This document shows positions 7,519-64,000 of a stretch of 64,000 nt of DNA, one piece after another. The DNA is from Talaromyces rugulosus (Eukaryota; Ascomycota; Eurotiomycetes; Eurotiales; Trichocomaceae). The translations under genes were made by a program, and so were the position numbers. The stretch lies in NCBI RefSeq assembly GCF_013368755.1, contig NC_049566.1:4836001-4900000 (forward strand), given 5' to 3'. How positions within the stretch are numbered: position 1 is the first letter of the stretch; every line of letters begins with the position of its first letter. The notes beneath the pieces are model-generated. The model saw only the letters and a list, made by a program, of their open reading frames with translations. It had not been told where the DNA came from and ran no database searches.

Positions 7519-8344
7519 TTTGGGTATGATGTGAGAGATATTTGCAGATAAGGAAAGTGTTTCAGTCCGTCTGGAAATGAAAGTAGAAGCAGGACTAAGT
7601 GTAGAAGATTTGATGAAAAAGTGGTATCATACGGACTGTAAATAGTTCCAATTGTAAGAATGACCGAATACAAGCCGGGGGGGGGGGGGGGGGGGTTCGA
7701 AACGTTCTTCCCCGCAGATCACTGTTCTCTTAAATCCTAGATTTCATTTGTTGAGTAGCCGCGATAAGGATCACGAAAACAATGTTCGATATCCGCCGCC
7801 CTCCGCAATACCCGTCCAATTTCTACCCCCGGGAAGAGCCGACAAGGAAGAACCGGGGCTGAGGGGTTGTGGAGATAAGGCCGTGGAAGAAATTGCGGGG
7901 GTTGGAATTATTGAGAGTCGCGCAGAACATGGATTTGACAGCAATTTCGCTGTCGAGCTTTCAGTTGCCCTCATTTTGCCCTCTTTGGACGGTCTGGATA
8001 CAACCCAAAGATTATAAGACCTGTTCAACCAAGTCTTCGCTGGAGGCGATCAGCGGATGGGGAGGGTTATCTACGTCTTTGATTAGGTAGAAACCCACCA
8101 GGAACCATCGCCGCTATGCAATCATAGGAGAGGCGCCGGGCCAGAGGAGTTTATCGAAGCGGCCCGCAATACCCGTGTGGATCACACAGCGCAGCAACTT
8201 CATCCTGCTAGGTTCTGTTTTTCTCAAAATATATAGCACTTAAATACTACCTTAAAAAGTGTCGACACATCATTCCTTTTGAACCAAGAGTATCAGCCGT
8301 GTAATCTCGAGGCTTCCTATCTCGTTCAAATCTCCCCAGTCGAA
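7519..8344. promoter_or_regulatory. Divergent promoter region of NMO and dehydrogenase, with G19 tract
   Basis: About 825 bp between two divergent start codons, so it must carry both promoters. It contains an uninterrupted run of 19 G on the + strand at 7677-7695 and, just before the dehydrogenase, an AT box (AATATATAGCACTTAAATA near 8228). Small open frames at 7748-8090 look like chance. Confidence 0.5.
7677..7695 (+). repeat. Poly-G tract (19 bp)
   Basis: Nineteen consecutive G residues, 159 bp upstream of the nitronate monooxygenase start codon. Mononucleotide runs of this length are length-unstable and hard to sequence. On the transcribed-strand side of the promoter it is C-rich. Confidence 0.9.
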
Positions 8345-30359: not shown

Positions 30360-31133
30360 CCTTTGAAGGTCATAATGCCTCCGGGCACATGCTAAAACAA
30401 TGTAACTTGATCGTACATCCGGGTTTGCCGAAAGTTCTTCTGCCAGAATTTGTCCCAATGGCGAGGGACTGCGAGTGATACGAAGCCGAAACCCCGAAAT
30501 GCCATTAGGAGACCAAGTAAAGCTGTAGCATACTTCCTTCGTCTCTGCATGGCAAGGTGCCAAGCAGGGCTGTGCGTGCTGGCCGGAGCCGCCGATTCTG
30601 CAGGCTCGAGTGCCAGCATACTAGCGGGGACAATTCGCTCCATAGACGTGGCCTGGACCGTAGTTGTGGATTACTTGGTCTTCAAATCATGCAGCTCCAC
30701 CCCGTTAGTAATGATGCAGCTTGCCTCACGTCAGGGGTGGTGCAGGGTCGTCAAGCTCCGGCCCGGGGTTAGGGTTAGGGTTAAGGGACCTGATGGTCGG
30801 AGGAAGACGGACCACATTACAGAGTACTTATTTGAAAGGCGTGCATCAATGGGGGCCTGCTGACATGTGTTACAAGCGACATAACCTGGCCAGAGTGGGA
30901 CCTTGGTGGATGTTGCGTGAGCAAGGCCCATGGATTCACTATCACACAAGTTTGCCCTTGATATGAATGCGAGCCCTTGGTAATATATATATTAGTGCCG
31001 TAGCCTAACCAGAGGTCAGGAGCTTTTGTCTTTAGCGTAATGAGCGCAGAAAAGCAATCTGGCACCGCGGCATTCTCCCATTCTGCTACCTAACTCCTAC
31101 TTTACGGACTCGTTTATACCTATACCTCCTGCA
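30360..31133. promoter_or_regulatory. Spacer and promoter of the C14 protease gene, with internal telomere-type repeat
   Basis: Separates the 287-aa gene from the caspase-fold protease. Contains a short TTAGGG run (30,766-30,787) and an AT box (TAATATATATATTAG, 30,980-30,994) about 140 bp before the ATG at 31,134. Minus-strand frames at 30,324-30,643 are overlapping and unsupported. Confidence 0.5.
30766..30787 (+). repeat. Interstitial telomere-like repeat
   Basis: GGG followed by two perfect TTAGGG units and a third with one extra A (TTAAGGG). TTAGGG is the telomere unit of most filamentous ascomycetes. So short a run can arise by chance, by break repair, or serve as a promoter telobox. 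Confidence 0.7.
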
Positions 31134-33086
31134 ATGTCTGCTCTTCCCCCACCGGGTTTTTGGGCAGTGTTGATCGGAATCGACCATTACGACAAATACA
31201 AACCACTGAGGGGGTGCGTTTCGGACATTGAGAATATCGAACGTCTCCTTCATGACACAGTTGACTCGACGCGGCTGCAGGTCTACAAGATCACCGCAGC
31301 AGTAGCAAACGAGCCGCACCCGCCTACGTACAAGAACATCATGGACACTTTTCAAGAAGTCAAAAGGAAAGCAGCACCAGGCGACTTCTTTTACCTTCAC
31401 TATTCCGGGCATGGTGGTCGCCAACAGCGCAAGGAGGACCCCCAGTATCCTCAGCATCATGCAGCCGGTGGGGAGATGTACGAAAGCCTTGTTCTCCACG
31501 GCGACAAACATCTCAAAGATTATGAGCTCGGACAATGCCTGGACGGCTTGGCTGATGCCGGCGTCAAAACTTTCGCTGTGCTCGATTGCTGCCACTCCGG
31601 GGGTGCTGACAGGGTCGCCGACGACACCATCCGCGGACTCGACCACGTTATCCCGCCGGATGAAGATGACAACGATGTTCTCCCGCATTATCCAGAGGAA
31701 GAGTCCGACGCTACTACTCAGGAACCAAGTCGGGATGGCTCAGCCAAGGCGTCATATTGGACCAGGGCACGGAAATATACCCTCCTGGCTGCATGTCAAC
31801 CGCATGAGTACGCGAGGGAGTGTGAAGACCAAAATGGCGAGAGGCACGGTGCCCTGACCTATACGATGCTCAGGTCCATAGCAAAGCTCAGTGTCAGCGG
31901 CGTGATACCGACTTATAAGACGTTGTATTGGGATATCGCCGCCAACATTTTCAGCGTCTCTTCTACCCAACATCCTATGCTCTTTGGAGAACGCGACATT
32001 CACTTGTTCGGAAGCACCAGCCATCAAAGCACTCGACTTGCTGTTGTGAATAGAATCGACGGTGACCGGCGGCTTTATATCAGCAGAGGTGAAGCACACG
32101 GCGTCCGCGTTGGTGAGGAGTACGCTGTGCACCCGCGAGGGGCATTCGATCTATCTCAGATAATTGCGAAGATCCGGATCAACTCAGTCGGGATGACACG
32201 CGCGTCTGCGAAGATTCCGCCGATGGCCAGGGTGGAACAGGGTTGTCCTGTTTCACTGGTCACTCCGGTCATTACCGATCTTCTGCGCGTGAAGGTCCAG
32301 TCCCCGGAGCTACTGCAGGAACTGCAACAGAGAACCGGATCCACGATTCAGTTCAATGCATACGATTCACGGGACGCGACGCACCAAGTGCTCTTTCAGG
32401 ATCAATCCCACCAGATAGTGGATGCCACCGGGACTCCTTTATCGAATTGTCCTTTATTCCCGGCCAACGGAGAAGCCGCCACCAAAATATACACCTTCTT
32501 GCAAAAGTTTGCGCATTACCGGATGGTTGCACAACTTCATAATGAAAAGTCCCACCTGAATGCCTCTTTCGTTTTCCAGGAACGCGACGGAATCGACGAT
32601 GTCTTTCATGAAGAGAGTATCAACCTGGTGTTTAAAAACCTGAAACCGCCTCCACCTATTGGATCCCTCCGCGATGTGTTGTATTTCAGCGTCCTCAATT
32701 TGAGAGACAATTGGGAAGTCGCACTTGTTATCCCGGACCCGGATGACACAGATGATTCCATCGCAGTTGGGCCTGGCGAGACAAGTGATCAGTACGATAT
32801 GGAGATGACGATTCGGACCCCTCAACAATCCGAGCTGGATGACATTTTCATGGTGATTGTGACGACACAGCCAAGTCGATTTGGCATGCTAGACACGACT
32901 GGAGGGGTGACCAGGGGTGGTAACTGGTCCGGCGACATTCCGCAACAGCTCGAGGACATCATCCACAGTTTTGAAGGGCCAGACCGAGCGGGGACTCCGA
33001 AACGCCGAGTGGGAGATTGGCAAACGGCCAACCTCCTCATCAAGACCAGACAAAGACCGCAAGAACCAAAGCACGAGTTGATGTGA
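31134..33086 (+). CDS. Caspase-fold protease (peptidase C14, metacaspase-like), 650 aa
   Basis: Intact intronless gene. The N-terminal about 270 residues form a C14 caspase domain: the strand FWAVLIGIDHYDKYKPLRGC, catalytic His93 in YLHYSGHGGRQ, and catalytic Cys153 in AVLDCCHSGG. A loop rich in Asp/Glu (about 170-200) lies where caspases are processed. TLLAACQPHEYARE and HGALTYTMLRSI follow, then a C-terminal region of about 350 residues (beta-rich, with RRLYISRGEAHGVRVGEEYAV) that resembles the C-terminal part of other stand-alone fungal caspase-like proteins; I cannot give it a function. Unlike yeast-type metacaspases it has no Pro/Gln-rich N-terminal prodomain. Fungal proteins of this class are linked to heterokaryon incompatibility and regulated cell death. 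Same strand as the 287-aa candidate effector, 0.8 kb downstream of it. Confidence 0.9.
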   Translation: MSALPPPGFWAVLIGIDHYDKYKPLRGCVSDIENIERLLHDTVDSTRLQVYKITAAVANEPHPPTYKNIMDTFQEVKRKAAPGDFFYLHYSGHGGRQQRKEDPQYPQHHAAGGEMYESLVLHGDKHLKDYELGQCLDGLADAGVKTFAVLDCCHSGGADRVADDTIRGLDHVIPPDEDDNDVLPHYPEEESDATTQEPSRDGSAKASYWTRARKYTLLAACQPHEYARECEDQNGERHGALTYTMLRSIAKLSVSGVIPTYKTLYWDIAANIFSVSSTQHPMLFGERDIHLFGSTSHQSTRLAVVNRIDGDRRLYISRGEAHGVRVGEEYAVHPRGAFDLSQIIAKIRINSVGMTRASAKIPPMARVEQGCPVSLVTPVITDLLRVKVQSPELLQELQQRTGSTIQFNAYDSRDATHQVLFQDQSHQIVDATGTPLSNCPLFPANGEAATKIYTFLQKFAHYRMVAQLHNEKSHLNASFVFQERDGIDDVFHEESINLVFKNLKPPPPIGSLRDVLYFSVLNLRDNWEVALVIPDPDDTDDSIAVGPGETSDQYDMEMTIRTPQQSELDDIFMVIVTTQPSRFGMLDTTGGVTRGGNWSGDIPQQLEDIIHSFEGPDRAGTPKRRVGDWQTANLLIKTRQRPQEPKHELM

Positions 33087-44039: not shown

Positions 44040-47000
44040 TCAACCATGTCGGCTCTCCCAGAGCGTCCAGAAAAGCGAGTCAGGCTTGCTCTTCAGCTCA
44101 CGAGGATCGCCTACCTCCACAATCCGTCCCTTATCCATAACAACGACGAGATCCAGATCCGCGATAGTCTCCAGCCTATGCGCCACTACCAAAACCGTTT
44201 TCTCCTTGAAAACCTCCCGTAGCACCTTTTGCGCCTGCTCATCTGAATAGTGGTCGACACTACTAGTGGCTTCGTCAAGGAGCACAACGGGGCTCTTGCT
44301 CAGCAGGGCTCGAGCTAGGCAGAAGAGCTGTTTCTGCCCGTGAGATAGTCCAAGACTCTCGAAGTCTACGTCCAGACCACCGCGGCTGCTGATGGTCTCC
44401 CACATGCCCGCACTAGATAAGGCATCGATCAGGATCTCGTCGGCGGCAACCGTCTCTAGAGGGTCGAGGTTTGTACGGACAGTGCCGGGTAGCGTCACGG
44501 AATCCTGGGGGAGAGCTGTGAGGTGGGTTCGAGGTACTACGCTCGGCACCGACGCCAAATCGAGCCCGTCGATTGTAATTGAACCTGACTGGGTTTCCAA
44601 TAGTTTCAGAAGGCTTAGTAGCAGCGAGCTCTTACCGCTGTATTGTATGATATGTAAGCCGCTGTTCAGAGTGGCGGCGTGAAGGCACGCGTTGGAGAAA
44701 ATACATACCTTCCTGTACGCCCGCAGATTCCCACCTTCTGGCCTGGTTGAATCCGAAGCGATACATCACGTAGTACTGTCTCATCTTCGAGACTGAAACC
44801 TTGTCAGCATCTAGATATACTTCAAGGAAGTGGGGCTTTGTCTTTCAAAACTTACTGGTAGGTAGCAGTAAGTCCATCAACCTGAATGAAGCCAGTTGAG
44901 GGCCACGATACAGGCGCCTCTAGAATTTGTACTCCAGAGTCTTCTCGGGGCGTGTCTCGTATGAAGTTGCGCAATCGAGCGATAGCGCCAAGAGATGTCT
45001 CCATATTCGTCCAAGACATTATTACCCTGGAAAGGCTGTTGTTGAAGCCAATGAGAGTGACCATGGAAAGGCCGATGGCGCCGCGGGATGTTGTGCTCGT
45101 AAACCCAACAGCAAAGCTCACTAGAACGATGGCGATGCCTGTAACAAACAGGTCCATGACGACGTTCAACCATCGTTGGACGCAGAACAGGAGATAGAAA
45201 GGTTTTTGGGACTGGTCGAGGAACCGAAGATTCCCCTCCTGGAAGTCTTGCTGCCAGCCAAAGGCTCGAATTGTCGCCACACCGTGGAGCGTCTCGGTGA
45301 AATGCGTATATAACGGCGACTTGGACTCGAGATCGAGATGTCGGAGCTGACGCGATGTACGAAGATAGTATTTCTGTAGGAAGTATAGCGCTACGATGCA
45401 GAAAGGAATCACGGCAGCAACGTACTGTGCGCCCGACGCAATTACGGCCGCATTGGCAAGAAGGGTGAGCGAATCTATAGTCGTGGCGAAGAAGGCCATT
45501 GGCAATGCCTGGTCGATGAGTGTCATGTCTTGGCTGAAGCGATTGAGGATGGTACCACTGTCAGTTGTAGTGAAGTACCACAGCGGCGCTCCGACAGCTG
45601 CGTCCAGCAGAAGCCAGTGAAGATACTTGGCCGATTTTGGGATGATCAAGAAGGTGACGAACCAACCTACCATACCAGTCAAAATAATGGTGGCTGTTGC
45701 GAAGACAATGTAGCCGCTGAAATATGCACCACGATCTTGGTCGACGCCATGCTCAGTCCAAATGCGTACCCTTTGAGACTTGTGTGATTAATTTATTGTA
45801 TCATCTGAATTATAACTGTGTTCGAAACTGATCTTGGAGGGGGAAAGAAGCTTGCCCCGTAATTGAGAGGAATAGAACATACCAAACAATTGACATCTGT
45901 TTTACGCCGACACAGCAAATGGCGATAAGTAAGAATCCGAGTGATAGAGGTATCCCGGTCGACTTCAGATAGAATTTGTATAATGACCGATCCCCGGTCT
46001 GTCGTGTAAAGTCGCTCTCATCCTCCCCCGCAGCCTTAGCAGCGGCCGGATCAGCGGTTGTTTCAGTGTCGGCGTTTTGTATATCTTCGATTTCATGACT
46101 GGAGCGCGTTTTTAACGCGAGGCTTCTCACATAGCCATCCTGAGCCTGCAGCTCGGCAAAACTGCCACTCTGCGCAATGCGGCCGGATGTTTCAAGCACG
46201 ATGATATTGTCTGCAAAGGGGAGTTGGTGGACTAAGGAAGTTGTTAATAGACAGCTAAAGTATTACAGCATTCGGCTGCGATTCGGCGCATATGGCCCAC
46301 GTACTTGCGTTGGTCGCTAGCAGCACTGTTGCGCCCTGCTTTCGCAGAATTCCGACGACGCAGTTGAAGACTGTTCGGGAGGTAACGCTATCAAGGGCAC
46401 TGAACACGTCGTCGAGCAAGACAATATCTCTTCGTGCGTATAGTGCTCGAGCGATTGCCTGTACACAAGAAGTGATATTGGGTCAGCACATTAAGATATC
46501 AGGCTACTGGCCCCACGCCGTACGTACCACTCTTTGTTTCTGTCCTCCACTAAGACTGATGCCCCCACTCCCAACCAGGCTCTTATCGCCCAGAGGAAAT
46601 TGAGAAATATCGTCGTTGAGGGCACAGGCATGGCACACGGAGGCGTACCACTTCTCATCAAATTGCCCCGGACCAATGATGTTGTCACGAATGGAGATGT
46701 TCCGGAGCCAAGCAGTTTGGTCACAGTAAGCTATCGATGCGCCGACGTCCTCAACCCTAACTGTCCCGCCAGAGAGGCGGATCTCACCCAAGATACCTCT
46801 AAGAAGGGAAGATTTACCGCAGCCTACAGGGCCAGCGAGCATTGTGCAGCTGGACTTTGGAAGAGAAACGGTGATGCCCTGAAGCACAGGCTCTGTCTGG
46901 CTCTTTAGCGTGAAATTGGCATGTTCCAGGACAAGTCGAGTGGCGTGTGGCTTTCGAATCAAGGGAAGCTCGATATCTGAGTGTTCTTGCCTTTGTGCTA

Positions 47001-49066
47001 AGACAAGATGATCGCTCTCGCTCGTAGACGGGGATGGGGTTTCACCAGTGGTACTTGTATCGATCCTTTTATTCTCATGGCTTTCCAAGACCAAGAAGGC
47101 CTGGATACGATCAAAACAAGCAACAGATGCCTTGAAGTTTGGGATCGACCCCATCAGGTTGGCCATGGGTGACACGACAAGCGCCACGATAGACAAACTG
47201 GTGAACGCCTCGGAAGCACCGAATGCATCGGTCCCGGATTTTGTCCAAAATACAGCTGCTGTTATCACAACTACTGGAGTCGCTTGGTCCGAGAAGTTTG
47301 CTAGATTAAATCAGTCTTGGGCTTTTGTGCAATGTATGATACAGCATACCTATCAATACTATCTTTACGATAAACGCTCTAAATATTTTCGACACCTCGA
47401 GCTCGCTGGCCCGAAGGTCTTGAATCGATTTAGCAATATAGTCAGTGAGACCCATCATCTTCAGGCCCTTGATCTGCGTCAGCATCGAAGATGTGCTGGA
47501 AACCCTTTTCTGTATAGCTTGGTTCCATATCGCTCGAGCGGGACCAATGCCATCGGTGACATAGTTTGTGGCAATAACGGACACTGACGCCACACACATA
47601 CGCTTAGTTAACATCTTTGAGATAAAACGTCAAGGTTTACTTACCAACAGTTGGAATAACGACGAGGAAGCATGCAGGTCCTATTTGTCTTTCCAGGAGG
47701 TAGACAGCAACAAACAGCTCTACAACACTTGCCCAGATCTCGTGCATCAGTTGAATACCAGTGGCAATACCGTCCACGTCAGTGCTCATCAAAGTGACTG
47801 CGGCGCCTTCTTTGGCAGAGTTCGTATCAAGACCGATGGTCTTCTTGAAGATCAATGGCACAAGGCTTCCCCGAAGTATTGTGATCAGCTGAAATATGAG
47901 ATGGTTGTAGATGACTCGTGATAGCTTGTTGGCGGAGGATGTTAGTTTGATGGGATCTCTTCATTTGGGGACGAGCCAACTCACTGCAAGCCCCAGATAG
48001 ACCAGACACGTAGCACCAATCAGTCCACCGGCATTACCAACAGCGTTCCGCTGATCAGCACCCCTATCACTCTCCCCAACAAAGCTCACAACTCGATTGA
48101 TCAGAAAAGGCTGGGCGAAGCCGAAGCCAGCGAGACAAAGACGAGGGACGACTGGAGCAAGGAAGGGGACCTTGAAGGCAGAAAAAGCCGACTTGATGAG
48201 AACATGTTTCCCGCTTCTGTCGCTTGCCTGCCAGACGGCATCGAGCTTGGCTAAAAGTCTAGATGAGTCAAACTTGTTGCCAATACTGCCCAAGTCTCTG
48301 ACCTGGAGCAGACTTTTGAAGCCGTTCAAAAACAGCCGATTCAGCCACCAGAAGACCGACCGATTGATAGGGCCACTGGTTGCCTCCAAGGCGAGGTTTT
48401 TGGTCTTGTCGGTCACCAAGGGGCGCTTTTGTAGCTCTTCAAGGCATACAAGCACAAGCTTTGTTGCCAGTGAGGCGGTAAATAAGGCCTGTATTGGGCC
48501 ACTGTCTGGGGATCTTAGGAACAGTGTCCTGGTCTGCGCGAGTTCAAGCAAGACGGAGAGGGCGAGATAGCTGACCAAGAGGGTCGACGGCTTGATAGAC
48601 CGGCGATGCTCTGTGTATGATAGTACGACAATGGCGAATGATCCGATGAGATCCAAGACAGAGCCAGCGAGTGACACCGGCGTCCTAACGGTTCCTGGCA
48701 GCGCCCAGAGCACAACAAGGGCGATTTGGACCCAAATCAACGTTGTAGCCGCCGCCTTTGTGTGGAAGAAAGAGAATTAGCGTTTTCTACAAGTAAGTGG
48801 CAAAACTGAATGTCCTCGTCCGTCCCCAACGACCGACTTACAAGCTTAGCCCACAGGAGCCATCCAGCGCGCACACAGGTCTTCACCTGCCACAGTGATG
48901 TTGCTCGGGCTATAGAAACCAAAATAAACAAGCCAGAAGGGAGGATGCCGAGAATACTCTGCTCGAAGAGGAGCGTGAAGTCGAACACATCGTGCCGCTC
49001 TGGACCGAACGCCATGTCGGCAGTGTCGCGCCTATAGGATATATTCAGACCACGATGCAATTCCAT
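44040..49066 (-). CDS. ABCC-type ABC transporter (MRP family), RiPP cluster
   Basis: Full-length ABC exporter of the ABCC/MRP class: TMD0-TMD1-NBD1-TMD2-NBD2, predicted for plasma or vacuolar membrane. Ten exons join in frame (minus strand): 49066-48842, 48755-47985, 47924-47645, 47583-47350, 47300-46528, 46458-46305, 46231-45883, 45770-44856, 44792-44709 and 44637-44040. Introns are 49-112 bp, all GT-AG, and the product is exactly 1,460 aa. N-terminal TMD0 starts FDFTLLFEQSILGILPSGLF. NBD1: Walker A GPVGCGKSS (about 658), signature LSGGQKQRV, Walker B VLLDDVFSALD. NBD2: Walker A GRTGSGKSS (about 1258), signature LSHGQKQ, Walker B VVLLDEATSSVD. No lesion found. It is divergent from the first UstYa gene, with 675 bp between start codons, so they may be co-regulated. 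Inferred role: export of, or self-protection against, the cross-linked peptide. Confidence 0.95.
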
Positions 49067-49741
49067 GGTGTTCTTTTCAGTAGATCAATGGCAAGAAAGC
49101 TTCAGATTACTAGTTTGTTATCGGCAGTATGATTCGCTATTGAAAGTCAAGTCAGACGAGGTTGGTGATTCATAGACCCGATCTTCGATAAGCGCATTGA
49201 CGTTGCCGATGCACAAGTGACATCCCTTTGCTCTCTTCTCTGTCCACGTTCTCCTTCCCCGCTTCTCCGGTATTCGTTTCGCACGATACTCGACAGGGGC
49301 TTCCATGATGCAATTGTTGTACAAATTGACATCTTAACTGACGTGATTAAAGAATGCAAAACCCTGATCACAAAGCGAAAGCATAATAGACACGTTGTCG
49401 TGATGTTAGAAACCAACAAATGGCGTGCTCCACCAGTACAACATAACTCTATCGCTGATAGGTTTGATTACTGTATAGATAACGCTTTTAAGCATGCATG
49501 CAGAACATATTAGGGCAGCACACCGTTGTTCGGCCCATCCCTCCCATCTCGCTAAAAGTCGGGATAATAACGTACCGGTACTTGCCGCAGGACTAGGCGT
49601 GCGGGGCGAGTAGGATCTATCTTACACAATTATCGGTCTACTAGGGAAAAGCCCATTGAGTACTAGTCAAGTTATATAGCAACAAGCTGAGGTTTATTGT
49701 TTGCTTCTAAGGTACACTTAGAAAATTGTGAGCTCTACACG
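49067..49741. promoter_or_regulatory. Divergent promoter of ABCC transporter and UstYa-1
   Basis: 675 bp between two divergent start codons. Short frames at 49,118-49,513 on both strands look like chance. A CGGGGCGAGTAGG / CCGGTAC-rich segment lies at 49,560-49,612. I could not identify a zinc-cluster binding site with confidence. Confidence 0.5.
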
Positions 49742-50688
49742 ATGAGTAACTACAGTGAACACAAACAAAAGCGTCACGATCGGTCGTCACGATCACCGTC
49801 ACCATCATCATCGGAATTGGAAGGTTTTCTACCTCATAAAGGTTCCAGACATTTGCCAACTCGGAAACATGGAGAACTTCGGTTACTATACTCCAGAGCC
49901 ATTTTCTTCGCCTTGATCTTTCTTCTGGTTGGAACAAACGTTGCATGGTATCGATTCTACCTTTCCAAGGCATCTCAACCCGAGGAACCTTACTGTAGAT
50001 GGCCTCTTCAGATGCAAAATGGGAGATCGACTAACAGCAGCACAGATGGAAGTCCGGCTCAGAAAATGATTGCCTTCGACAATGCCTGGAAAGGTCTTGA
50101 TGTAGACGAAGTGAATGGGCATCATTACGCAGACGACAAGTGGCAGCATATCTTCCCAGGTGAGCTTGAGAGATCAATAGCAATTCTTTTGATATAACGT
50201 TGCTAATACATAACGTGGTGCAGCACACGGAGGTGGAGTTGCGCTGTCCCGTCCCTTCGCCGAAAAGCACGATCTCGCCCCGGGCGATGTTGTAAACGGT
50301 GATCCATCAAGGATGCATTACATACTGGCTGGTTACCATCAGCTCCATTGCCTAGTCTGTACCGGCACCATATAGGAGAAAATCCATGCTAACAAGTACT
50401 AAGGGAATCGTACGCGAGACTATTTATCAACTGAACGGCACTTCTAGCAACACCGACCCCATCTGGTGGGATCATGTCCTCCATTGTATGGAGCTCGTTC
50501 GGCAGGCATTGTTTTGTTTCATGGATGACACACTCCTTCCTGTGGCGGTGGAGCAAGGTATCCCAAATGACCCCAAGCATGTTTGTAGGAACACCGACGC
50601 GATCAGGAAGTGGGTCGATGCAAATGGGTATGCGGTGCCGCCGGCCCCTGACGGACCTCAAGCTCATAAAAATGGCACAAAGTCATAG
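49742..50688 (+). CDS. UstYa-family oxidase 1 (DUF3328), RiPP cluster
   Basis: UstYa-like protein: a type II membrane enzyme that installs oxidative cross-links in dikaritin peptides, bound to the secretory membrane. ATG at 49,742; exons 49742-50159, 50224-50354 and 50404-50688; 277 aa. Residues 49-70 form one membrane helix after a Ser/Arg-rich cytosolic tail. Both family HxxHC motifs are present: HQLHC at 178-182 and HVLHC at 207-211, the presumed metal site. At first sight the gene looks frameshifted after HQLHCL, but a 49-bp intron (GTCTGT donor, GCTAAC branch, AAG acceptor) joins the halves in phase 0. It sits at the same place as the third intron of UstYa-3. The donor is not the commonest form, so splicing should be checked. 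Confidence 0.88.
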
Positions 50689-51785
50689 TACAGAAACCAT
50701 AGCTATATACCAGATATCGAAGACGCGAGCACGCTTATTCTCTACTTGATCTCGGCTTTCTGGCTCTTCTCTAATGCCGTGGGCTGCATAGAATTCAGCC
50801 CTTTCATCTTCTTCTCGTTCCATGCATTTTTAAAGCAAGTTGTCTACAACCCATTTACTTTCTACCTAACCTTAAAGGTCTATACGCCATGTCCAGATAT
50901 GATTTCCTACTTTCCGCTCGCACAAGGCGTAGAGTGCAGGTTCTTTCAAAGGCCCCGGTCCACAGGATTTGGCTGCTGTACAGAGGATCTTGACAAACTC
51001 ATCTTTCTCAGACCTTCCGCCAACCTCCATCGCATGAGCGCAGGTCTTATACGCGTCAACATAATAATAACGGTCAAAGCTATATGAGTGCTTAAAAACT
51101 ATTCATACGCGTGGCGTCGAACGAACGGCAATGAAAACACGCCTGAAATAGCTATGCTAACAGCGGCCTAGAGCATATTTTTAACATAGGAACCTTTAAC
51201 TAAACTTAATTGTAACTTATAGTAAGACCTACTATACTTGATACCGATGCAAAAGGACGCGTACTAGGCCAAATCCGACTCAAAGCAGCTGTCAAGTAAA
51301 CGGCACATTCGATTATAGCAACGATACTAAGCCATCTATAAATAAAACTTATAAACTATTGTAATACGTGGACGCACTCGGAGAATATGTTGGGCCTGCT
51401 ACACACTGAGAGCAAAATCAGATTAATCGAAACTCCTTCACCGGATCGCCTTATCAGCACAGTTCGGCCCTTGGAAATAGTGAGAACTGCGGAACTAATT
51501 ACTAGTATGGAGTGAAAACCAAGTAGATAAAGTGGTGTAGCAATGCAAATACTTCTAAAGTATCGATGGATTGGACGATCAGAGGCATATTTGCGAGCGG
51601 AGAACTTCAGATCACGGGAACTGATATAAGGAAGGGAGATGTTCCATAGGTGGTATTGTAAAAAGGCTAAAATCATGATCCCAAGCTAGTGACATAAGAG
51701 AGTGTGCTGTAACATCAGCCGTGAAATCAATGATTTCAACAGGTACTTTGACATATCATATTCCAATGTTCCCCATCCTGTTATA
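50689..51785. other. Convergent intergenic region between UstYa-1 and UstYa-2
   Basis: About 1.1 kb. Frames at 50,746-51,087 (+) and 51,356-51,676 (-) show no recognised family. No methyltransferase, tyrosinase or peptidase gene of the kind found in other dikaritin clusters is present here. Confidence 0.45.
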
Positions 51786-52855
51786 CTACCTTCCATGATG
51801 ATGCGAACGTCCAGCTTCAAGGTCAAGCTTATTTCCCTCTTCTTCCATATCAGCAACGACAACTCCATTCGTCACAGTTCTCTCCTTTCCCTTAGTGCCA
51901 GCCCTAGCTTTCGGAGTCCTTGCTTCAGACCATTCGACGAGATCGTCCATTACCCTAGGGCAATAGCGGCTGGTCGCAAAGTCGGGACCCCATGAATTAA
52001 TGCCGTCATGCCATTTGTAGCGCACGGGGTTCGTGTCCCCGTGGCACGTAATTGCTTGTCGCAGGTAGTCGACGCAGTGATTTATGTGTAGCTCCCAGTT
52101 GCGAGGCGAGCCCTTGCGGGGATAATAGTCGGGGTATATAAGCCTACGGAGAGAGTCCAAGCAGTGCATCTGATGCATAACATCGAGTCCGGTGACCCAA
52201 TACCCATCTTGCAGAAGTGTTTTGCCCCGGACGTTATCGGCTTCTTCGCCATCAAGCAGCACGACCCAAACTGTGATTCAAATCGTGTTAGTACTGTGTG
52301 TATACATTCATTTTGGTGTGGGTGCGAGGGAGATTAAAAAGAGAGAGGGAGAAATCAAGGAATCGCTCACATTCTTCTAAATCTTCCCAGGCCTCGTCCA
52401 TAGTCGGGGACGGTTTTCCAGACCAGCGTCTTTGACCTGGCACGTACTCCGCAATCAGAGAACCACTCGAGTTATAGGTAAGACCGCCCGTGAACTCCAT
52501 TGAGATGCGTTTATTACCGACACCTTTGCCATCGTCAGCTGCATTCTGCGAAATCTAAAGTGCTAAATAAGGGGTTGTAGATACCAAGTGCGACGGGCAA
52601 CCCTCCAGGATCGTCATCGCACGGCAATCGACCGGCATGGTGTTCCGTGGCAGTCCATGTCCGGAGAAGCAGGAGTGCTGTAGTGCAGGCAAATACCATC
52701 GTAGACAGTACCCACGGCCAGGAGGATGTTCTCAGCAAGATGCATTGTTTTGCCTTGTTCCAGCGTCGATGTGGAAGAGACAGTGAGTCGAACTCTTCCT
52801 CGACTTCATTCTTTAGGAACGCTGCTCGCTGCGATGGTTCCGAATCAAAGGACAT
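51786..52855 (-). CDS. UstYa-family oxidase 2 (DUF3328), RiPP cluster
   Basis: Second intact UstYa-like oxidase. Exons on the minus strand: 52855-52585, 52523-52371, 52270-51786; introns of 61 and 100 bp, both GT-AG and phase 1; 302 aa. Single membrane helix at about 47-65 (WPWVLSTMVFACTTALLLL). Catalytic motifs: HQMHC at 174-178 and HINHC at 202-206, with the family-typical CVDYLRQAITCHGD after the second. The C-terminus is longer than in the two paralogues, with a charged tail ending in three His. It is divergent from UstYa-3, with about 700 bp between start codons. Probable role: one of three tailoring steps on the precursor core. Which residue it joins cannot be predicted. Confidence 0.93.
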
Positions 52856-53555
52856 GGCATGAGTTTTCTTTCCTGTGTACGTTTTCTAACGATGGGGATA
52901 AAATCTATTCAATATTGGAGTTTGAATGTAATGTCAAGGAGGCGATGTCACAATTCTCTTCGACATTCGAAACCCACTTTGTTAGCGACCTGGTTACCCT
53001 TTATCGGGGAATCGTCGAAACCCCCAGGAAAATCAAGTCAACATGTCGTCACCCAAGATCCGAATGTCGAAATATAAGGCCACCATCTTGTGCAGGGGTA
53101 TTAAAGGTACAGTGACATTACCTTTGTAGATCCCAGATAATGCATTAAGCAGATCGCTTGGCGGTTACTTATCAACGTCGCTTAGTTGTATATGCATGCT
53201 TCCTGATCGTCGAGTCGCAACTTGGTCATCTGTCGGTAGTTACTTCAGTGCACGTATAATGGACGTTAGAATATGAAGTATTAGCTTACACTTGCATATC
53301 TTGCCTCATCCTCAGATGCTGCAGACCATTCAAACAACCGAACCGTGAGCTCCCCGCTCCCTTTCCAATTTCCTACATGCGCGCCTTTGTGCGATGTTGG
53401 CTTATGGATCTTTCCTCTAGATAACTTTTTACTCCAAAACTGACGGGACCTTGATCCCCCCTACAACTTCTCGTCTTGTTGCGCTCTCTTTCTTCTCTAC
53501 TCAGGACATTCAACGTATCACCCTCTTCTACCTATCATAACCTCATTTGGCTACG
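52856..53555. promoter_or_regulatory. Divergent promoter of UstYa-2 and UstYa-3
   Basis: 700 bp between start codons, so both promoters lie here. Overlapping frames at 52,859-53,115 are the antisense of nothing and match no family. The CT-rich leader CTCTTTCTTCTCTACTCAGG (53,484) precedes UstYa-3. Confidence 0.5.
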
Positions 53556-54536
53556 ATGGAGTATGCTACATACTCCAAAGTGAACCAGGAGTCAAGCGAC
53601 GCCTCGAAATCAGATTTCTCTGAAGATGAGGGCGGTAGTCTGCTCATGTCCCAGCAGCCCAAAAGTTTCGTGGCTAGACTCTCTTACGCCGTAAAACGCA
53701 GCTGGTGGGTTGCTGGTCCTTTACTCTGGCTTCTCTCGCTCCTCGCCACCTGGATCATCGCATCAGTGGCCTCGAAATCTCCCTACGATATTTCTGTCGG
53801 GCTGGATACCGAGCTAGGTGAGCAATATCCCAATTAACTCCCCGTTTTGAGGGCACTAAGTAACCGTTTGGCAGAACTGTTCAAGCCGCACATTGAAATG
53901 TACAAGACAACCTTCTCCAGTGATCTGGACTGGGATGCAAATGGGACACTATGGCGAATTTCGAGACCCGGGTCTTTGCAGTATGTGGGCGACCCCAGTC
54001 CCGAGATTGATGCGAATTGGGAGGACCTCACCCAGGGTAAGTATCTATCACGCGCGATATCTCGCTGCTGTGGTGCTAATACTATCAACCAGGCGTCGCC
54101 ATAGACATCAAAGGCCCCGAAGCAAAGGGAATCGAAGGAACGACGTATCAAAAGCCCGATGGGTCGTGGTTTCTAGCTATCGAAGCGTTCCACCAGCTAC
54201 ATTGTTTAGTGAGTGTGTCGCTTCTCTTTCAGCAAAGCAAAACTGCTTACAATCTGGCAGAACATGATTCGTAAGGCGCTGGACGTAGAACACTACGGTA
54301 TCAATGAGAAAGACCAGTCAGACACGCACCCCTGGCGCATGCACATCGAACACTGCATAGACGCTTTACGTGAGGCAATCATGTGCAGAGCGGAAGTTGC
54401 CCCTATTCCCATGGAGTTCAACGCAAAATATCGGATGGCGAGGCCTGCCTTCGTCGCCGTGGAGCATACTTGTCGAAATTTTACGCAGATCCGGGACTTC
54501 ATGTCGCAGTACAAGGCAACCCAACCGCTCTTCTAG
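53556..54536 (+). CDS. UstYa-family oxidase 3 (DUF3328), RiPP cluster
   Basis: Third intact UstYa-like oxidase, 271 aa, from ATG 53,556 (MEYATYSKVNQ). Exons 53556-53817, 53875-54036, 54093-54208 and 54261-54536; introns of 57, 56 and 52 bp, all GT-AG. One membrane helix at about 50-70. Motifs HQLHC at 175-179 and HIEHC at 208-212; a GTLWRISRPGSLQYVGDPSP segment lies ahead of them. It is the oxidase nearest to the precursor gene and on the same strand, 1.3 kb upstream. Sequence around the motifs differs clearly from the other two copies, so the three are old paralogues rather than fresh duplicates, which suggests separate cross-linking roles. Confidence 0.94.
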
Positions 54537-55046
54537 ATGGAGAGGGGGTTTGAGACTTGAGCGTGGAGGCAGATTTCTTACTATAATGAGAGTATTTTAG
54601 CCACACAGTAGTAATGATGAATCTCAGAAATGTATATACAAGACGTCTGTAGTACGAGATCTCAAGATACTGTACCAGTACAGTATGATACGGCTGTATA
54701 TTACTACCGTATTTTCTTGGTGAACTGAGGTTCTAATTGTGCCCTTCTCTCAAACTTCACTCTGCTATTACATTTTGAATCAACCACCATTAAACCACTA
54801 AACGCTAGTTTCTTAGCGATCAATATGTCTGCTATACTTCGATCACGGTCGGGAGAGTGCAAGATCATTCTTCCGTTGCATTTTCTGCTTCCAGTAGTCT
54901 TTTCAACCTTTCTAAGCGTTAAAGACGATTCTATCCCTCAAGTGCTTTTCGAAACCTGCACCTCTTACCAGTGCTACTTTCTCTGCCGGGTCTTTGGCAG
55001 AGCGGTGCACAATTCGTAGATCTACAGGATCATGTCCTAGTTCATC
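54537..55046. other. 3' flank of UstYa-3
   Basis: Short frame at 54,825-55,019 (MSAILRSRSG) with a hydrophobic middle but no family match and no spacing to suggest a gene. Otherwise nothing seen. Confidence 0.4.
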
Positions 55047-55356
55047 ATACCTGCTTCCTGCATGGAGGATGCCAGCGTGATAATTTACCTGCTTTCTGCA
55101 TGAATGATGCCATCGTGATAACTTACCTGCTTCCTGCATGAAGGGTGCCAGCGTGTTAATCCACCTGCTTTCTGCATGAATGATGCCATCGTGATAACTT
55201 ACCTGCTTTCTGCATGAAGGGTGCCAGCGTGATAACTTACCTGCTTCCTGCATGAAGGGTGCCAGCGTGATAATTTACCTGCTTTCTGCATGAATGATGC
55301 CATCGTGATAACTTACCTGCTTCCTGCATGAAGGGTGCCAGCGTGTTAATCCACCT
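55047..55356 (+). repeat. 38-bp minisatellite, about 8 copies
   Basis: Tandem units of 38 bp with the frame TTACCTGCTT(T/C)CTGCATGAA followed by GGGTGCCAGCGTG (type A) or TGATGCCATCGTG (type B). The order of types is about A-B-A-B-A-A-B-A, so larger two-unit blocks were duplicated. 38 is not a multiple of three and there are no unique spacers, so it is neither coding nor CRISPR. It lies between UstYa-3 and the RiPP precursor. Confidence 0.92.
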
Positions 55357-55860
55357 GCCGTTCGAAGATTGATCGACCCTTATCTTCAGTCTGTAGTTGA
55401 CAAGCTCGATTTGAATATGCATGCAATTTATCCAAATCCTTTCGAGTGTTGGATTCTCGTCATTCCATATCTTCTGCTCGTGCGGGATCGGCCCGAGTAC
55501 AACCGCTTCTCTGATGAATGCTTGGTAATGACCTGGAACAACGGCACAGAGATAACAGACGGAGTGGTTCTGACTTTGGCAGTTGCCAATCTAGAGTATG
55601 CGGGTGTACATGATCAGATGAGGGTTGATGCCCTGCACGGTGAACTCAACCTCCGATGTATACAAAATTGCCAAGTATTACACCATCGGACGAGGAGAGG
55701 TTGGAGATATAAATGCTGCCAACAACCGGATATCTCGTAGAATCTTTTCAAACACCAACTGTCGTCCTTCACAGTCAATTTCTTCCTCACAGTCAACTTG
55801 TTCCACCCAGTCAACGTCTCCCTCTTCGTCTTCTCAAGCAGAAAACCTTCACTCGCAAAT
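55357..55860 (+). promoter_or_regulatory. Promoter and leader of RiPP precursor gene
   Basis: A TATAAA box at 55,708-55,713 lies 148 bp before the ATG at 55,861. The leader between them is CT/CA-rich and contains three near-repeats of CAGTCAA (about 55,770-55,819), typical of strongly expressed fungal genes. A 123-codon frame at 55,369-55,740 covers this region; it overlaps the TATA box and is probably not a gene. Confidence 0.55.
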
Positions 55861-56405
55861 ATGAAGTCCTCCATCATCCTCCTCGTCGCAAGCTCCGTCC
55901 TTGCTGTTGCGATCCCCGCACCAAAGCAGAACCAGGGTAAGTGTTCAGTTGGCGTGCATCAATCAACGATATTGACGCGGTTTCAGCTCGCAGCATTTAC
56001 ACGTATGGAGTCACAGAGTACGAGGACAAGGAAAAGGAGGAGGCCAAGGTGAATGCCCGCAGCATTTACACGTATGGAGTCACAGAGTACGAGGACAAGG
56101 ATAAGGACGAGGCCAAGGTGGATGCCCGCAGCATTTATACGTATGGCGTCACGGAGTACGAGGACAAGGAAAAGGAGGAGGCCAAGGTGGATGCCCGCAG
56201 CATTTACACGTATGGAGTCACGGAGTACGAGGACAAGGAAAAGGAGGAGGCCAAGGTGAATGCCCGCAGCATTTACACGTATGGAGTCACAGAGTACGAG
56301 GACAAGGATAAGGACGAGGCCAAGGTGGATGCCCGCAGCATTTATACGTATGGCGTCACGGAGTACGAGGACAAGGACAAGGACAAGGCTGAGGCCAAGG
56401 AGTAG
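55861..56405 (+). CDS. Fungal RiPP precursor peptide (dikaritin/UstA-type), six core repeats
   Basis: Secreted precursor of 164 aa. Exon 1 is 55861-55936, the intron is 55937-55986 (GTAAGT...TTTCAG), and exon 2 is 55987-56405. The signal peptide MKSSIILLVASSVLAVAIPA comes from exon 1, and the repeats are entirely in exon 2. Six units of 23 residues (69 bp) start at Arg27, 50, 73, 96, 119 and 142. Each reads R-SIYTYGVTEYEDK and then an acidic/Lys spacer (EKEEAKVNA, DKDEAKVDA and similar); the last ends DKDKAEAKE. The 13-residue core is identical in all six. Architecture (signal, then repeated Tyr-rich cores separated by protease sites) is that of UstA/PhomA-type precursors processed in the secretory pathway and cyclised by UstYa oxidases. 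There is no KR/RR; cleavage would have to be at single Arg (V-N/D-A-R) or Lys. The core is unlike the YAIG, YVIPID and FYYTGY cores known to me. Confidence 0.92.
55989..56402 (+). repeat. Coding tandem repeat, six units of 69 bp (two blocks of three)
   Basis: Units begin with CGCAGCATTTA at 55,989, 56,058, 56,127, 56,196, 56,265 and 56,334. Silent changes show that units 1-2-3 and 4-5-6 correspond (GGAGTC/GGAGTC/GGCGTC; GAAAAG/GATAAG versus GAAAAG/GATAAG), so a block of three (207 bp) was duplicated. Confidence 0.9.
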
Positions 56406-60400: not shown

Positions 60401-61158
60401 AGTATATGACTATATAGAGAATATAGCTAAATATAGCTAGACTATATTTGGATATATTAATAATATAGCTAACAGAGCATTGACTATATTTATTATATTT
60501 AGGATCAGCTATATAAAGACACTCATTTACTATTATATATCTAGCTTATTATATTTTATTCTCTTAAGCAAATAGTATATTACTATTACTCTTCAATATA
60601 CTTTGTAGTCTATCATTGTGATAGTACTCTACTTATTCTAGAATTACTTTACACATCGTTCTTATCTTACCTTCTATTAACAGAATACCCACTCCAATTC
60701 ATATCTTAGTAATAAGTTGTTAAACTAATTAACAATAAAACACCTTTATAACATAAAAGTTTTAAGAACTAGATAAATAATTAAATCTTATTAACAAGCT
60801 AATTATAATAGAAAATAGCAATATACTAGCAGTAGAACCAGTAATCCTATACCCACCTATAAGATAAGTAAGACCAGTTGATTAAAACAGTAACAATAAA
60901 CCTGATAAATAAATCTAGTAAAGATTTACTATATTAGAAAAAGTTATTAATTAAATAAATAAATATATTCAAAGACTACAAGCTATAGTTATTAAAAAAG
61001 ATAATTATATTAACCAACTCAAAGCTTAAGTTATAGCTATATTATCTAGTAAAATTAGAATAGCTGGCAATAAAATTAAACTACTAAAACCTATAACCTT
61101 TGACAATTAATAATCTAATACCCGCCGGGAAAATCAAAAATCAACCTTTTGAAATTCA
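57491..61158. mobile_element. AT-rich, RIP-degraded transposon sequence
   Basis: 3.7 kb of mostly AT-rich DNA. 57,500-57,780 is still GC-balanced and could be a leader or terminal part of an element. 58,920-59,700 reads as one long plus-strand frame if the many TAG/TAA stops are taken as mutated Gln/Trp codons (for example around FNGNACKMLIQNI and VKYLEEFDIPNLI), which is the RIP signature. 59,710-60,034 continues as an acidic, Glu/Lys-rich open frame. The product looks like a transposon-associated fungal protein; I could not assign the family. 60,180-61,100 is low complexity with repeated GTGCAGATGCAC-type words (60,224-60,380). Confidence 0.6.
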
Positions 61159-63090
61159 ATGCTACTGGAAGGCATCCAGGGCTTCGCTATGGCCCCTGGA
61201 CTCCCCAATATCGACAACCACCCCCTAGACCCAGGGGGGCAGGCGCTAGGTCTGGTGAACCCCGTAGGGGCCTATATAGGCACCCCAGCGGGGACAGCAC
61301 CACCAGCGCCCCCCGAGGCAAGTGCAACAGTCCCTCAGAGCGAGGGCTTCTTGCCTAGCCTGGAAATCAACCCTAGGGAGTTGTTTCCCCCCCTAAGCAG
61401 CGTGCCAGGCTCCCAGGAAGCACCTAAAACTCTAGGGAAGAGACTACAGGAACACAGCCCTGACGGGGCAGAAAGAGCCCCCATGAAGGCCCTAATCGGC
61501 CCAGCCTACAAGGACATGGAACAGGCCTTATTAGGCCACTTTGCAAGCAGCAATAGCGCGCTGCACGCGGAGATGGCCGCTATGAAGGCCTATATGACCT
61601 CTCTGGTAGAGGCTATGGAGCAGCGCCTCACAGGCCAATTGGGCGCTCTGGAGCGCCGTTTCTCAACCCTAGAAGCTCAACAGGCCTCCCCGAACGCCCC
61701 AAACCACCCCCTAAAGCCCCTATCGTCAGGGGGCGACCGCCAGGGCCCACGACAGCCTCTGCCATCCCAGGGGACGACGTTTGCAGAGGTCGCCCATGGC
61801 CCCCAAGCTAACCCGAATAGGGCCGCTAAGCCCATAGAGCCACGCAGAGCCTCACCCCCGATATCAAAACCACCCCCTGGGGTGAAGCCCGCAGCAGGCC
61901 CCCAGTGGGCCGATATAGCGGCCAGCAATGCCCAGGAGTGGCAAATCGTTACAAAAAAACGGGCTTACTCCCCGAACCAGCCCCCAAAAGTCCAAATGGA
62001 CCCAGGGAGCCTGAAGCCTATTCGCGGAAGCAACAAGGGAGACCGCAGGCTTATATTTAGGCGTGAAAATGGCCGCACCGCCCCTAGAAAGTCTAAAGCC
62101 GATGTCATCTTGCAGCTTAACCGCTGCCTAGCCCAGGCAGGCTTCCCGAACTTCGCCAGGGTAATAGACGCCAATTACACCGAATCAGGGGCTATCTCAG
62201 CCCTATTGGACCAAGGAAGCACCGTAGGCTCGCTATTACCAGCCTATAAGGACCTATTAGTGGCTGCCTGCCACCGGGTCGACCCCGCAGTCATCTCAGT
62301 GGAAGCAGACCAACAGTGGCACAAGATTAAGGTGCATGCGGTGCCGGTAGCCCGCTATAGCGCCTCAGGGCTAGGCCTAGCCAGGGAAGAAATTGAATTA
62401 GGGGGCACATGCACCCTAATGAGAAACCCTACCTGGATCAAGCCGATAGCGGCTATCCAGACTAATAAGCAGCGTTTCTCTACTATCGTTATAACAGTAG
62501 GAGGCCTAGATGACGCCCGCAGGCTACTCGCCCGGGGCGTACGCTTCGGGGGCAACAGGCACCCTACCAGCCCCTATCACGAAGTGGGTAAAGACACCGT
62601 TTGCACCCGATGCTGCGGCATTGGCCACCGAACTTATAGAGGCTGCGGCACCCGACCACCACTCTGCACCGTGTGTGCTGGCGCCCATGAAGCCCAAGAG
62701 CACACCTGCAACGTGCTAGACTGCAGGGCCCAAACAGGCCACCCATGCCTGCATGCACCCACTAAATGCGGCAACTGTGGGGGGAAGCACCAGGCTGATT
62801 CCCCGGGGTGCCCCAAGCTTCGGGAGGCCCGCCGGCGACTCCATAAGCGCTTCCCTGGCGTAGAGGTCGTTATGCCCCCTCCCCCCCCTGAATGGACCGA
62901 ATGGGAAGGCGTTGCTGAGGAGGCTTCTCCCCCAACCACTACCCAGGACGCCCCCCAAGCCCCAAAGCTTAGGGAGGTCGATGACGCTATGGAAGATGCC
63001 CCAGGGACATCACCCCTACCGTACTCATCCCCGTGTCCAACACCAACGCCTGGAGCTGCAGCCCCTATTAATGTTGATTATTCAACATAA
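61159..63090 (+). CDS. LINE ORF1 (gag-like nucleic-acid-binding protein)
   Basis: 643-aa ORF1 of a Tad1-like LINE, a nucleic-acid chaperone that coats the element RNA. The N-terminal half is Pro/Ala-rich and low in structure, with a short coiled coil at about 115-175 (EAMEQRLTGQLGALERRFST). The middle (about 300-470) is a globular RNA-binding part. Residues about 480-560 hold three zinc knuckles: CTRCCGIGHRTYRGC, CTVCAGAHEAQEHTC and CGNCGGKHQADSPGC. The tail is Pro-rich. ATG at 61,159 is the first in frame and close to the start of GC-rich sequence. A second overlapping short frame at 61,149 is a shadow. Confidence 0.88.
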   Translation: MLLEGIQGFAMAPGLPNIDNHPLDPGGQALGLVNPVGAYIGTPAGTAPPAPPEASATVPQSEGFLPSLEINPRELFPPLSSVPGSQEAPKTLGKRLQEHSPDGAERAPMKALIGPAYKDMEQALLGHFASSNSALHAEMAAMKAYMTSLVEAMEQRLTGQLGALERRFSTLEAQQASPNAPNHPLKPLSSGGDRQGPRQPLPSQGTTFAEVAHGPQANPNRAAKPIEPRRASPPISKPPPGVKPAAGPQWADIAASNAQEWQIVTKKRAYSPNQPPKVQMDPGSLKPIRGSNKGDRRLIFRRENGRTAPRKSKADVILQLNRCLAQAGFPNFARVIDANYTESGAISALLDQGSTVGSLLPAYKDLLVAACHRVDPAVISVEADQQWHKIKVHAVPVARYSASGLGLAREEIELGGTCTLMRNPTWIKPIAAIQTNKQRFSTIVITVGGLDDARRLLARGVRFGGNRHPTSPYHEVGKDTVCTRCCGIGHRTYRGCGTRPPLCTVCAGAHEAQEHTCNVLDCRAQTGHPCLHAPTKCGNCGGKHQADSPGCPKLREARRRLHKRFPGVEVVMPPPPPEWTEWEGVAEEASPPTTTQDAPQAPKLREVDDAMEDAPGTSPLPYSSPCPTPTPGAAAPINVDYST

Positions 63091-64000
63091 TTGCGGCCGT
63101 ACCTACCCCGCAACCTTAGGGGCTCTAGAAGCGGGGATAGAGCGGCAAATAGGCATTATATGCCTGCAAGAGCCTTATATTGCCTATGACTTCTCCCACC
63201 CAGGCTATCTGCTGTACTGGCCAGGGGGGGAGAAGCGGGATCAACGGGTGCTTATGGCCATCCGTAAAGACCTTATAGGGGCGGTTAGGGTCGAGAACCG
63301 CACTGATTTAGTAGACCACCCCTATTTACAGGCCCTGGACATATGGGAAGCACCAATAATTAGCGGGCATGCCCCCCGACGCACTAGAATAGTCAACTGC
63401 TATGATGTGTGGATTGGGGCCAGTTACCGGTGGCAAGGGGCCTTCCCTAGACGACGCCGGGCCATCGAGGACGCAGACTGGGACCTGCTTATAGTGGGTA
63501 GGTGCCTATTAGTGGGTGATTTCAACGCCCATAGCCCTTCGTGGAACCCACTGGCCAAGGGCCGGGTTAACGCTGAGCCCTTGGAACAGCTTATAGAGCG
63601 GCACTCACTATATGTTAATAACCCACTGGGGGAGGCCACACGCTATAAGAAGACCGAGGGGGTGTCAATTATTGATTTAGCGTTATCCTCGCCAACCCTA
63701 GGGCCTCTGCAAGCCTGGGAGGTGGATAAGGATAAGCCTACAACATCTGACCATGAGCTTATCGTCCTAGCCTGGGAAGCCCTAGAACCCCCCCCAGGAG
63801 GAATCTCCGGGGAGATTACTGGGTGGCAGATAGAAGCTCTGCAGGTAAACGAGGAAGCCCTAAAGCTGGCCACAGCAGCTTGGGCCTCAGAGGCTGTAGG
63901 CCACCCCCCTCTTAGTGATCAATGCACCGAGGAAGACCTTGCTAGAGAGGCCAATTGGGTGCAGGACACCCTAACCAGCGTACTCGATAGGCATGCCAAA
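63071..64000 (+). CDS. LINE ORF2, 5' part (endonuclease domain), truncated by window end
   Basis: Starts at ATG 63,071, 20 bases before the ORF1 stop and in another frame, as expected for coupled translation. It is open for 310 codons to the window edge. This part is the apurinic-like (EEP) endonuclease that nicks the target: IICLQEPYI carries the metal-binding Glu, LLVGDFNAHSPSWNP the Asp/Asn pair, and TTSDHELIVL the catalytic Asp-His. The reverse transcriptase should follow outside the window. Confidence 0.88.
   Translation, partial: MLIIQHNCGRTYPATLGALEAGIERQIGIICLQEPYIAYDFSHPGYLLYWPGGEKRDQRVLMAIRKDLIGAVRVENRTDLVDHPYLQALDIWEAPIISGHAPRRTRIVNCYDVWIGASYRWQGAFPRRRRAIEDADWDLLIVGRCLLVGDFNAHSPSWNPLAKGRVNAEPLEQLIERHSLYVNNPLGEATRYKKTEGVSIIDLALSSPTLGPLQAWEVDKDKPTTSDHELIVLAWEALEPPPGGISGEITGWQIEALQVNEEALKLATAAWASEAVGHPPLSDQCTEEDLAREANWVQDTLTSVLDRHAK

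Follow-up and report, generated by a model that had tools for sequence, protein, structure and literature searches.

A Candidate UstYa-Type Peptide Cluster in Talaromyces rugulosus with a Repeat Precursor Lacking Dibasic Sites

Results

Gene Content of the Locus

The window, a 64,000-nucleotide stretch of the Talaromyces rugulosus genome (C6:4836001-4900000; genome of 35.76 Mb on 6 contigs), contains at positions 44040-56405 a 12.4-kb group of genes made up of a repeat precursor, three UstYa-family genes and an ABCC-type pump. Contig C6 is 4,978,393 bases long, with approximately 86 kb between the cluster and its end. The precursor gene (55861-56405, forward strand) consists of exon 1 (55861-55936), which encodes the signal peptide, an intron of 50 nt (55937-55986, GTAAGT..TTTCAG) and exon 2 (55987-56405), and its stop codon ends at 56405; the product is 164 aa long and carries six repeats. 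All three UstYa-family genes match PF11807 and lie within about 6.1 kb upstream of the precursor, the nearest at a distance of 1.3 kb. UstYa-C (53556-54536, forward strand; 271 aa) has four exons (53556-53817, 53875-54036, 54093-54208 and 54261-54536), UstYa-B (51786-52855, reverse strand; 302 aa) has three (52855-52585, 52523-52371 and 52270-51786), and UstYa-A (49742-50688, forward strand; 277 aa) also has three (49742-50159, 50224-50354 and 50404-50688). The pump (44040-49066, reverse strand) has ten exons. A minisatellite with a 38-bp unit in 7.9 copies (55048-55349, forward strand) separates UstYa-C from the precursor.

Of the 33 ORFs in the window with 130 aa or more, 28 were scanned for domains as such and another 3 in the form of gene models; these scans returned no tyrosinase, S41 peptidase or methyltransferase, nor did those of 11 of the 24 such ORFs in the next 50 kb. 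The window is also without an Rfam match at gathering thresholds.

The first-pass annotation described the surroundings of the cluster as full of broken genes, a picture that was given a cursory check. An aldehyde dehydrogenase frame (8237-9976) is interrupted by at least one in-frame stop, while a second stop may be intronic; no 2-kb step of the window reaches the RIP criterion, and the AT-rich stretch at 58-61 kb, where the composite RIP index is weakly positive, likewise falls short of the full criterion. Downstream of the cluster and past this stretch, long open frames at 61153-64000 and L012:1-3117 match endonuclease, reverse transcriptase and RNase H, and are probably those of a non-LTR retroelement. 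A TPR-CHAT protein and a caspase-like (Peptidase_C14) protein, neighbors at 24785-33083, possibly form a fungal cell-death or incompatibility pair.

The Precursor and Its Relative in Colletotrichum camelliae

The second exon of the precursor encodes six SIYTYGVTEYEDK cores (55992-56375, forward strand; starts at 55992, 56061, 56130, 56199, 56268 and 56337), identical over 13 residues, spaced at 23 aa and each preceded by a single Arg, with splicing placing Ala-Arg before repeat 1 exactly as before the other five. TRF detected a 69-bp unit in 5.7 copies (score 692), and together with the splice model and the 164-aa product this bears out the signal-peptide precursor with six identical cores that had been proposed earlier. 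The leader has a hydrophobic run, IILLVASSVLAV, with a mean hydropathy of 2.9; the C. camelliae relative described below is alike in this respect, as judged by hydropathy only. Three core codons vary among the repeats and all of these changes are synonymous, an outcome with a chance of about 0.007 if changes are random and independent; spacer changes also alter the sense. A genome search gave three matches, corresponding to the two exons and to one weak antisense match in the same repeats, so that the precursor is single-copy. A crude repeat scan of the window picked up the precursor's own frames and, beyond these, the TPR/CHAT protein alone; in the 50 kb downstream of the window it found no repeat precursor. 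Pfam and NCBIfam identities were considered for this precursor and its relative and were set aside, the matches being weak and below cut-off.

The T. rugulosus precursor was absent from the matches listed when 5.8 billion proteins were searched, though UstYa-C of the same species was listed in its own search. Among the 7999 candidates sharing most words, to which scoring was confined so that weaker relatives may have dropped out, the sole relative at E 1 or better was the C. camelliae hypothetical protein CcaCcLH18_06924 (P0001; 93 aa, E 7.8e-15), which has three SIYTYAVKDYE repeats. The two precursors have similar signal peptides, agreeing at 14 of their first 17 positions, and share the R-SIYTY repeats, the V-x-A-R internal sites and the lack of a dibasic pair; they differ in repeat number (six in T. 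rugulosus and three in P0001), in the middle of the core (GVTE vs. AVKD) and in their spacers. The core is thus kept between a Eurotiomycete and a Sordariomycete as SIYTYGVTEYE and SIYTYAVKDYE, giving the shared pattern SIYTY-[G/A]-V-[T/K]-[E/D]-YE in which all three tyrosines (Y3, Y5 and Y10) are retained. The earlier impression of an unfamiliar Tyr-rich core is upheld by this single protein relative and by a text search of the open-access literature for the core sequence, which returned no relevant paper and no title or abstract on fungal peptides. Likewise, nothing on this cluster was found in the portions of the Talaromyces RiPP literature that we consulted.

UstYa-Family Enzymes and the ABCC Pump

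The splice models and the PF11807 matches (76 bits for A, 114 for B and 131 for C, at a cut-off of 25) confirm that all three UstYa-family genes are complete and that each encodes two HxxHC motifs, namely HQLHC and HVLHC in A, HQMHC and HINHC in B, and HQLHC and HIEHC in C. Both motifs are invariant across 20 aligned UstYa proteins, C included; the alignment used 20 of the 25 proteins from the searches with UstYa-C and UstYa-A, leaving out P0006, P0007, P0015, P0019 and P0020, among which are partial or differing models.

Our model of UstYa-C is identical to the public TRUGW13939_11999 at 271 of 271 residues. Its search gave 15 hits including itself, with close relatives in Seiridium cardinale (83%), Colletotrichum sidae (68%), C. 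falcatum (67%, partial) and Torrubiella hemipterigena (66%, with a second, partial model), followed by a drop to about 40% and below. The 83% match to a Sordariomycete makes horizontal transfer of UstYa-C a possibility, though not one that we claim. One N-terminal membrane helix is predicted for UstYa-C, and from its AlphaFold2 model (20 sequences; mean pLDDT 60.7, pTM 0.44) we take no more than an N-terminal helix and the placement of the two HxxHC motifs on helices. Foldseek returned 36 PDB matches for this model with E up to 10, of which none reached 0.001 or better, and sequence comparison gave no relative with a solved structure.

The search with UstYa-A gave 10 hits, the best from Coleophoma (44%) and others including Cadophora, Xylaria and Hypoxylon. 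This search listed no T. rugulosus protein, which leaves the gene model without annotation support, and intron 2 of the model has a weak donor (GTCTGT). The close relatives of UstYa-A and UstYa-C have no species in common, Hypoxylon sp. FL1284 appearing in both lists as a distant hit; UstYa-A may be a separate recruit, judging from these comparisons. UstYa-B is complete, with several possible splices at intron 1 and an uncertain choice among them. By bit score, and among the proteins compared, it is nearer to C and the relatives of C (29-32%) than to A.

The ten-exon ABCC pump reported from the first reading stands as well. Its frame is open (49066-44040), with nine exons modeled by script; reading by eye adds a tenth by placing a ninth intron at 44708-44638 and moving the end of intron eight to 44793, and the full Walker A is thereby restored. 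The second membrane domain of the pump matches ABCC8, YCF1 and MRP1. The membership of both the pump and UstYa-A in the pathway is uncertain.

Arginine Sites of the Two Precursors

Every arginine of the two precursors, 6 of 6 in T. rugulosus and 3 of 3 in P0001, stands directly before SIYTY, and neither protein has a [KR][KR] pair anywhere. The four residues before the T. rugulosus cores are NQAR, VNAR, VDAR, VDAR, VNAR and VDAR, and those before the P0001 cores are KDGR, VAAR and VEAR. V-x-A-R is therefore found at all 7 internal sites (P4 Val in 5 of 5 and 2 of 2), in spacers that have otherwise diverged to the point of not being alignable.

These sites differ from those described for related precursors. 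Dikaritin precursors are reported to have their cores separated by KR, RR or KK (PMC9769878). By its stated rule, the large KEP survey accepted only KR, KK, RK or RR between repeats (PMC7329392). Exceptions are hinted at: according to Le Marquer 2019, KEX2 sites occur in almost all, not all, of the Aspergillus ust-RiPS precursors of Nagano 2016 (PMC6339444), and precursors without KEX2 sites may thus already be known. A single-arginine dikaritin-like precursor was not found in print in the open-access literature searched. Within the same literature, only PMC8528282 and PMC9769878 were retrieved as dealing with both non-canonical kexin sites and RiPPs. The former describes an extended kexin motif with Arg nearly always at P1, a variable P2 and an aliphatic P4, Val included, and V-x-A-R resembles this motif in its aliphatic P4 and its P1 Arg. 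The latter reports that KEPs expressed in P. pastoris gave products apparently cut after a single Arg. Kexin cutting at the single Arg is plausible on this comparison. It is weakened by Ala at P2 in 6 of 6 sites and Asp at P3 in 3 of 6, a poor fit to the preferences of Kex2, for which Ala is absent from the five alternative P2 residues listed and Asp at P3 is given as unfavorable (PMC8528282), and by the lack of an aliphatic P4 at the site before repeat 1 in both precursors (NQAR and KDGR). The genome gives one match to the kexin P-domain, covering 57 of 86 profile positions with one internal stop that is perhaps an intron.

Other UstYa-Linked Precursors in the Genome

For an internal comparison, we applied the crude repeat scan to about 10 kb on either side of 10 of the other 24 UstYa loci (UstYa matches in the genome number 43, distributed over 25 loci). 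A repeat precursor was present in 3 of the 10 loci and absent from 7. Two of these precursors, one with DELDGDLYNY (C6:4394141-4394740) and one with a cysteine-bearing ACAAVGGGSAAAAC unit (C5, about 3,950,000), have KR throughout. The third (C4:1854694-1855212) has eight ELYPAPDLGRIKVDD cores; of its 8 sites, 4 are KR and the remaining 4 QR or ER, which looks like a half-way state. In this precursor, Val or Ile occupies P4 in 4 of 4 monobasic sites, a pattern that is suggestive only as support for kexin acting at a single Arg, because the repeats are not independent, 1 of the 4 KR sites also has an aliphatic P4, and the core contains further arginines (LGRIK).

Discussion

Relation to Known Systems

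The precursor shares with dikaritins and ust-RiPS a signal peptide (by hydropathy), at least three tandem cores, a nearby UstYa (DUF3328) gene and Tyr in the core, and it departs from them in having no dibasic KR, RR or KK between cores. The dikaritin-type label given to the cluster at first reading is apt insofar as a secreted repeat precursor is linked to UstYa genes, but the absence of the dibasic site was then overlooked. We suggest that the pathway would work like a dikaritin pathway, with a proposed product and a proposed cleavage; the printed dibasic rule excludes the precursor from both dikaritins and KEPs. With KEPs it has in common that it is secreted and has at least three tandem repeats of at least 8 aa, whereas the KEP screen as described demanded KR, KK, RK or RR between repeats (PMC7329392), of which this precursor has none. 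Ustiloxin B (UstA, UstYa/Yb, UstQ) is similar in its signal peptide, tandem identical cores and UstYa-family genes. However, the YAIG core of UstA is described as occurring 16 times, between ED and KR, and the ustiloxin pathway as requiring the tyrosinase homologue UstQ (PMC6514808), while the T. rugulosus precursor has no KR and the scanned window ORFs have neither a tyrosinase nor a methyltransferase domain.

A further close parallel is asperipin-2a of Aspergillus flavus (AprA, AprY, AprT, AprR), whose cluster is described as four genes, a precursor, one UstYa homologue, a transporter and an isoflavone reductase (PMC6514808; PMC12048977). In the account given by PMC6514808, asperipin-2a (FYYTGY) is bicyclic, with ether links from Tyr side chains to beta-carbons, and AprY is essential and is proposed to form the rings one after the other. 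The T. rugulosus cluster has likewise a three-Tyr core, UstYa-family genes, a transporter and a small gene set, with no tyrosinase or methyltransferase domain among the window ORFs scanned. It differs in having three UstYa homologues rather than one, a different core, no reductase domain among the ORFs scanned at 44-57 kb, where asperipin-2a has an isoflavone reductase, and single-Arg sites, where Kex2 sites are marked in AprA. The first-pass annotation raised the prospect that the minimal gene set may be new; this does not hold, because asperipin-2a already needs only four genes, none of them a tyrosinase or methyltransferase (PMC6514808; PMC12048977). Asperipin-2a is the best working model for the proposed cross-linking.

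Proposed Pathway and Alternatives

We consider it rather probable, from sequence comparisons, that the locus encodes a RiPP pathway of the UstYa type, similar to those of dikaritins, whose precursor is monobasic and in which a kexin-like cut after a single Arg is followed by UstYa cross-linking. The signal peptide, as read from the sequence, would send the precursor into the secretory pathway, where a kexin-like protease would cut after the Arg of V-x-A-R before each SIYTY, an aliphatic P4 and a P1 Arg taking the place of Lys-Arg. The 23-residue units so freed would then have their charged C-terminal tails trimmed, and membrane-anchored UstYa enzymes (most likely C, probably also B), by analogy with their family, would oxidatively cross-link S-I-Y-T-Y-x-V-x-x-Y-E into a macrocycle. 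The cross-links would presumably lie among Y3, Y5 and Y10, on the model proposed for AprY acting on FYYTGY of asperipin-2a, and the ABCC pump might, more speculatively, export or sequester the product. This pathway is favored because a repeat precursor with the look of a secreted protein lies next to UstYa genes, because the core with its three Tyr is kept between T. rugulosus and C. camelliae and its codon changes are all silent, and because Colletotrichum, to which the sole precursor relative belongs, also has close relatives of UstYa-C, a coincidence that holds at genus level only. The single-Arg kexin cut in particular is proposed because all arginines precede SIYTY, P4 is Val at the internal sites and there is no dibasic pair.

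The identity of the protease is one point at which this scheme could be altered with the rest left unchanged. Yeast has a monobasic-specific yapsin, and another Arg-selective enzyme of this kind (a yapsin-type aspartyl or a secreted trypsin-like protease) would suit the monobasic sites and the P2 and P3 residues that are poor for kexin. The ORFs scanned at 44-57 kb revealed no protease domain, which would fit any housekeeping protease. We regard such a substitution as unlikely, given that the spacers are Lys-rich and yet Arg alone has a constant position ahead of the core in T. rugulosus and C. camelliae, the pattern that a P1-Arg enzyme such as kexin would require, and that an aliphatic P4 suits kexin as characterized in PMC8528282. 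It is more improbable still that the repeat protein yields linear secreted signal or defense peptides and that the nearby UstYa genes serve something else or nothing. Many fungal repeat precursors are reported to yield unmodified peptides (PMC9769878), and DUF3328 genes are stated to lie near only 22% of KEPs (Umemura 2020), but the three intact UstYa genes so close upstream and the conserved tyrosines of the core argue against linear peptides here.

How many of the five genes take part is a separate matter, and the first-pass description of them as one unit was overstated, although they do form one intact stretch of 12.4 kb. Full five-gene membership is unproven because UstYa-A and UstYa-C share no close-relative species. 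There is close to an even chance that the cluster is composite, the peptide being made from the precursor with UstYa-C, perhaps also UstYa-B, while UstYa-A and the ABCC pump have another function. The failure of the UstYa-A hits (from 44%) to coincide in species with the close relatives of UstYa-C points in this direction, as does the position of UstYa-B, nearest to C rather than A among the proteins compared; against it stand the intactness of all five genes within so short a stretch and the nature of the comparisons, since a protein search would miss unannotated relatives and UstYa-B was compared with the collected proteins rather than with the large set.

Implications for UstYa-Linked Peptides

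For the dikaritin-like pathway with kexin-like cleavage that we prefer, the conserved three-tyrosine core predicts a macrocycle. The linear core fragments SIYTYGVTEY and IYTYGVTEY have calculated monoisotopic masses of 1194.5445 and 1107.5124, from which cross-linked forms would differ by 2.016 or 4.031 Da less. Both the T. rugulosus precursor and P0001 would fail the KR/KK/RK/RR filter of the KEP survey, as that filter is given in PMC7329392. We raise tentatively, as an idea that is at present doubtful, that there is a branch of fungal UstYa peptides processed exclusively at single-arginine V-x-A-R sites, overlooked since surveys demand dibasic sites and annotation skips such short genes, in which case hidden clusters may adjoin "orphan" UstYa genes. 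If single-arginine processing is true, precursors may exist for some UstYa genes now deemed to be without one, and a looser search rule, aliphatic-x-x-Arg, should be used.
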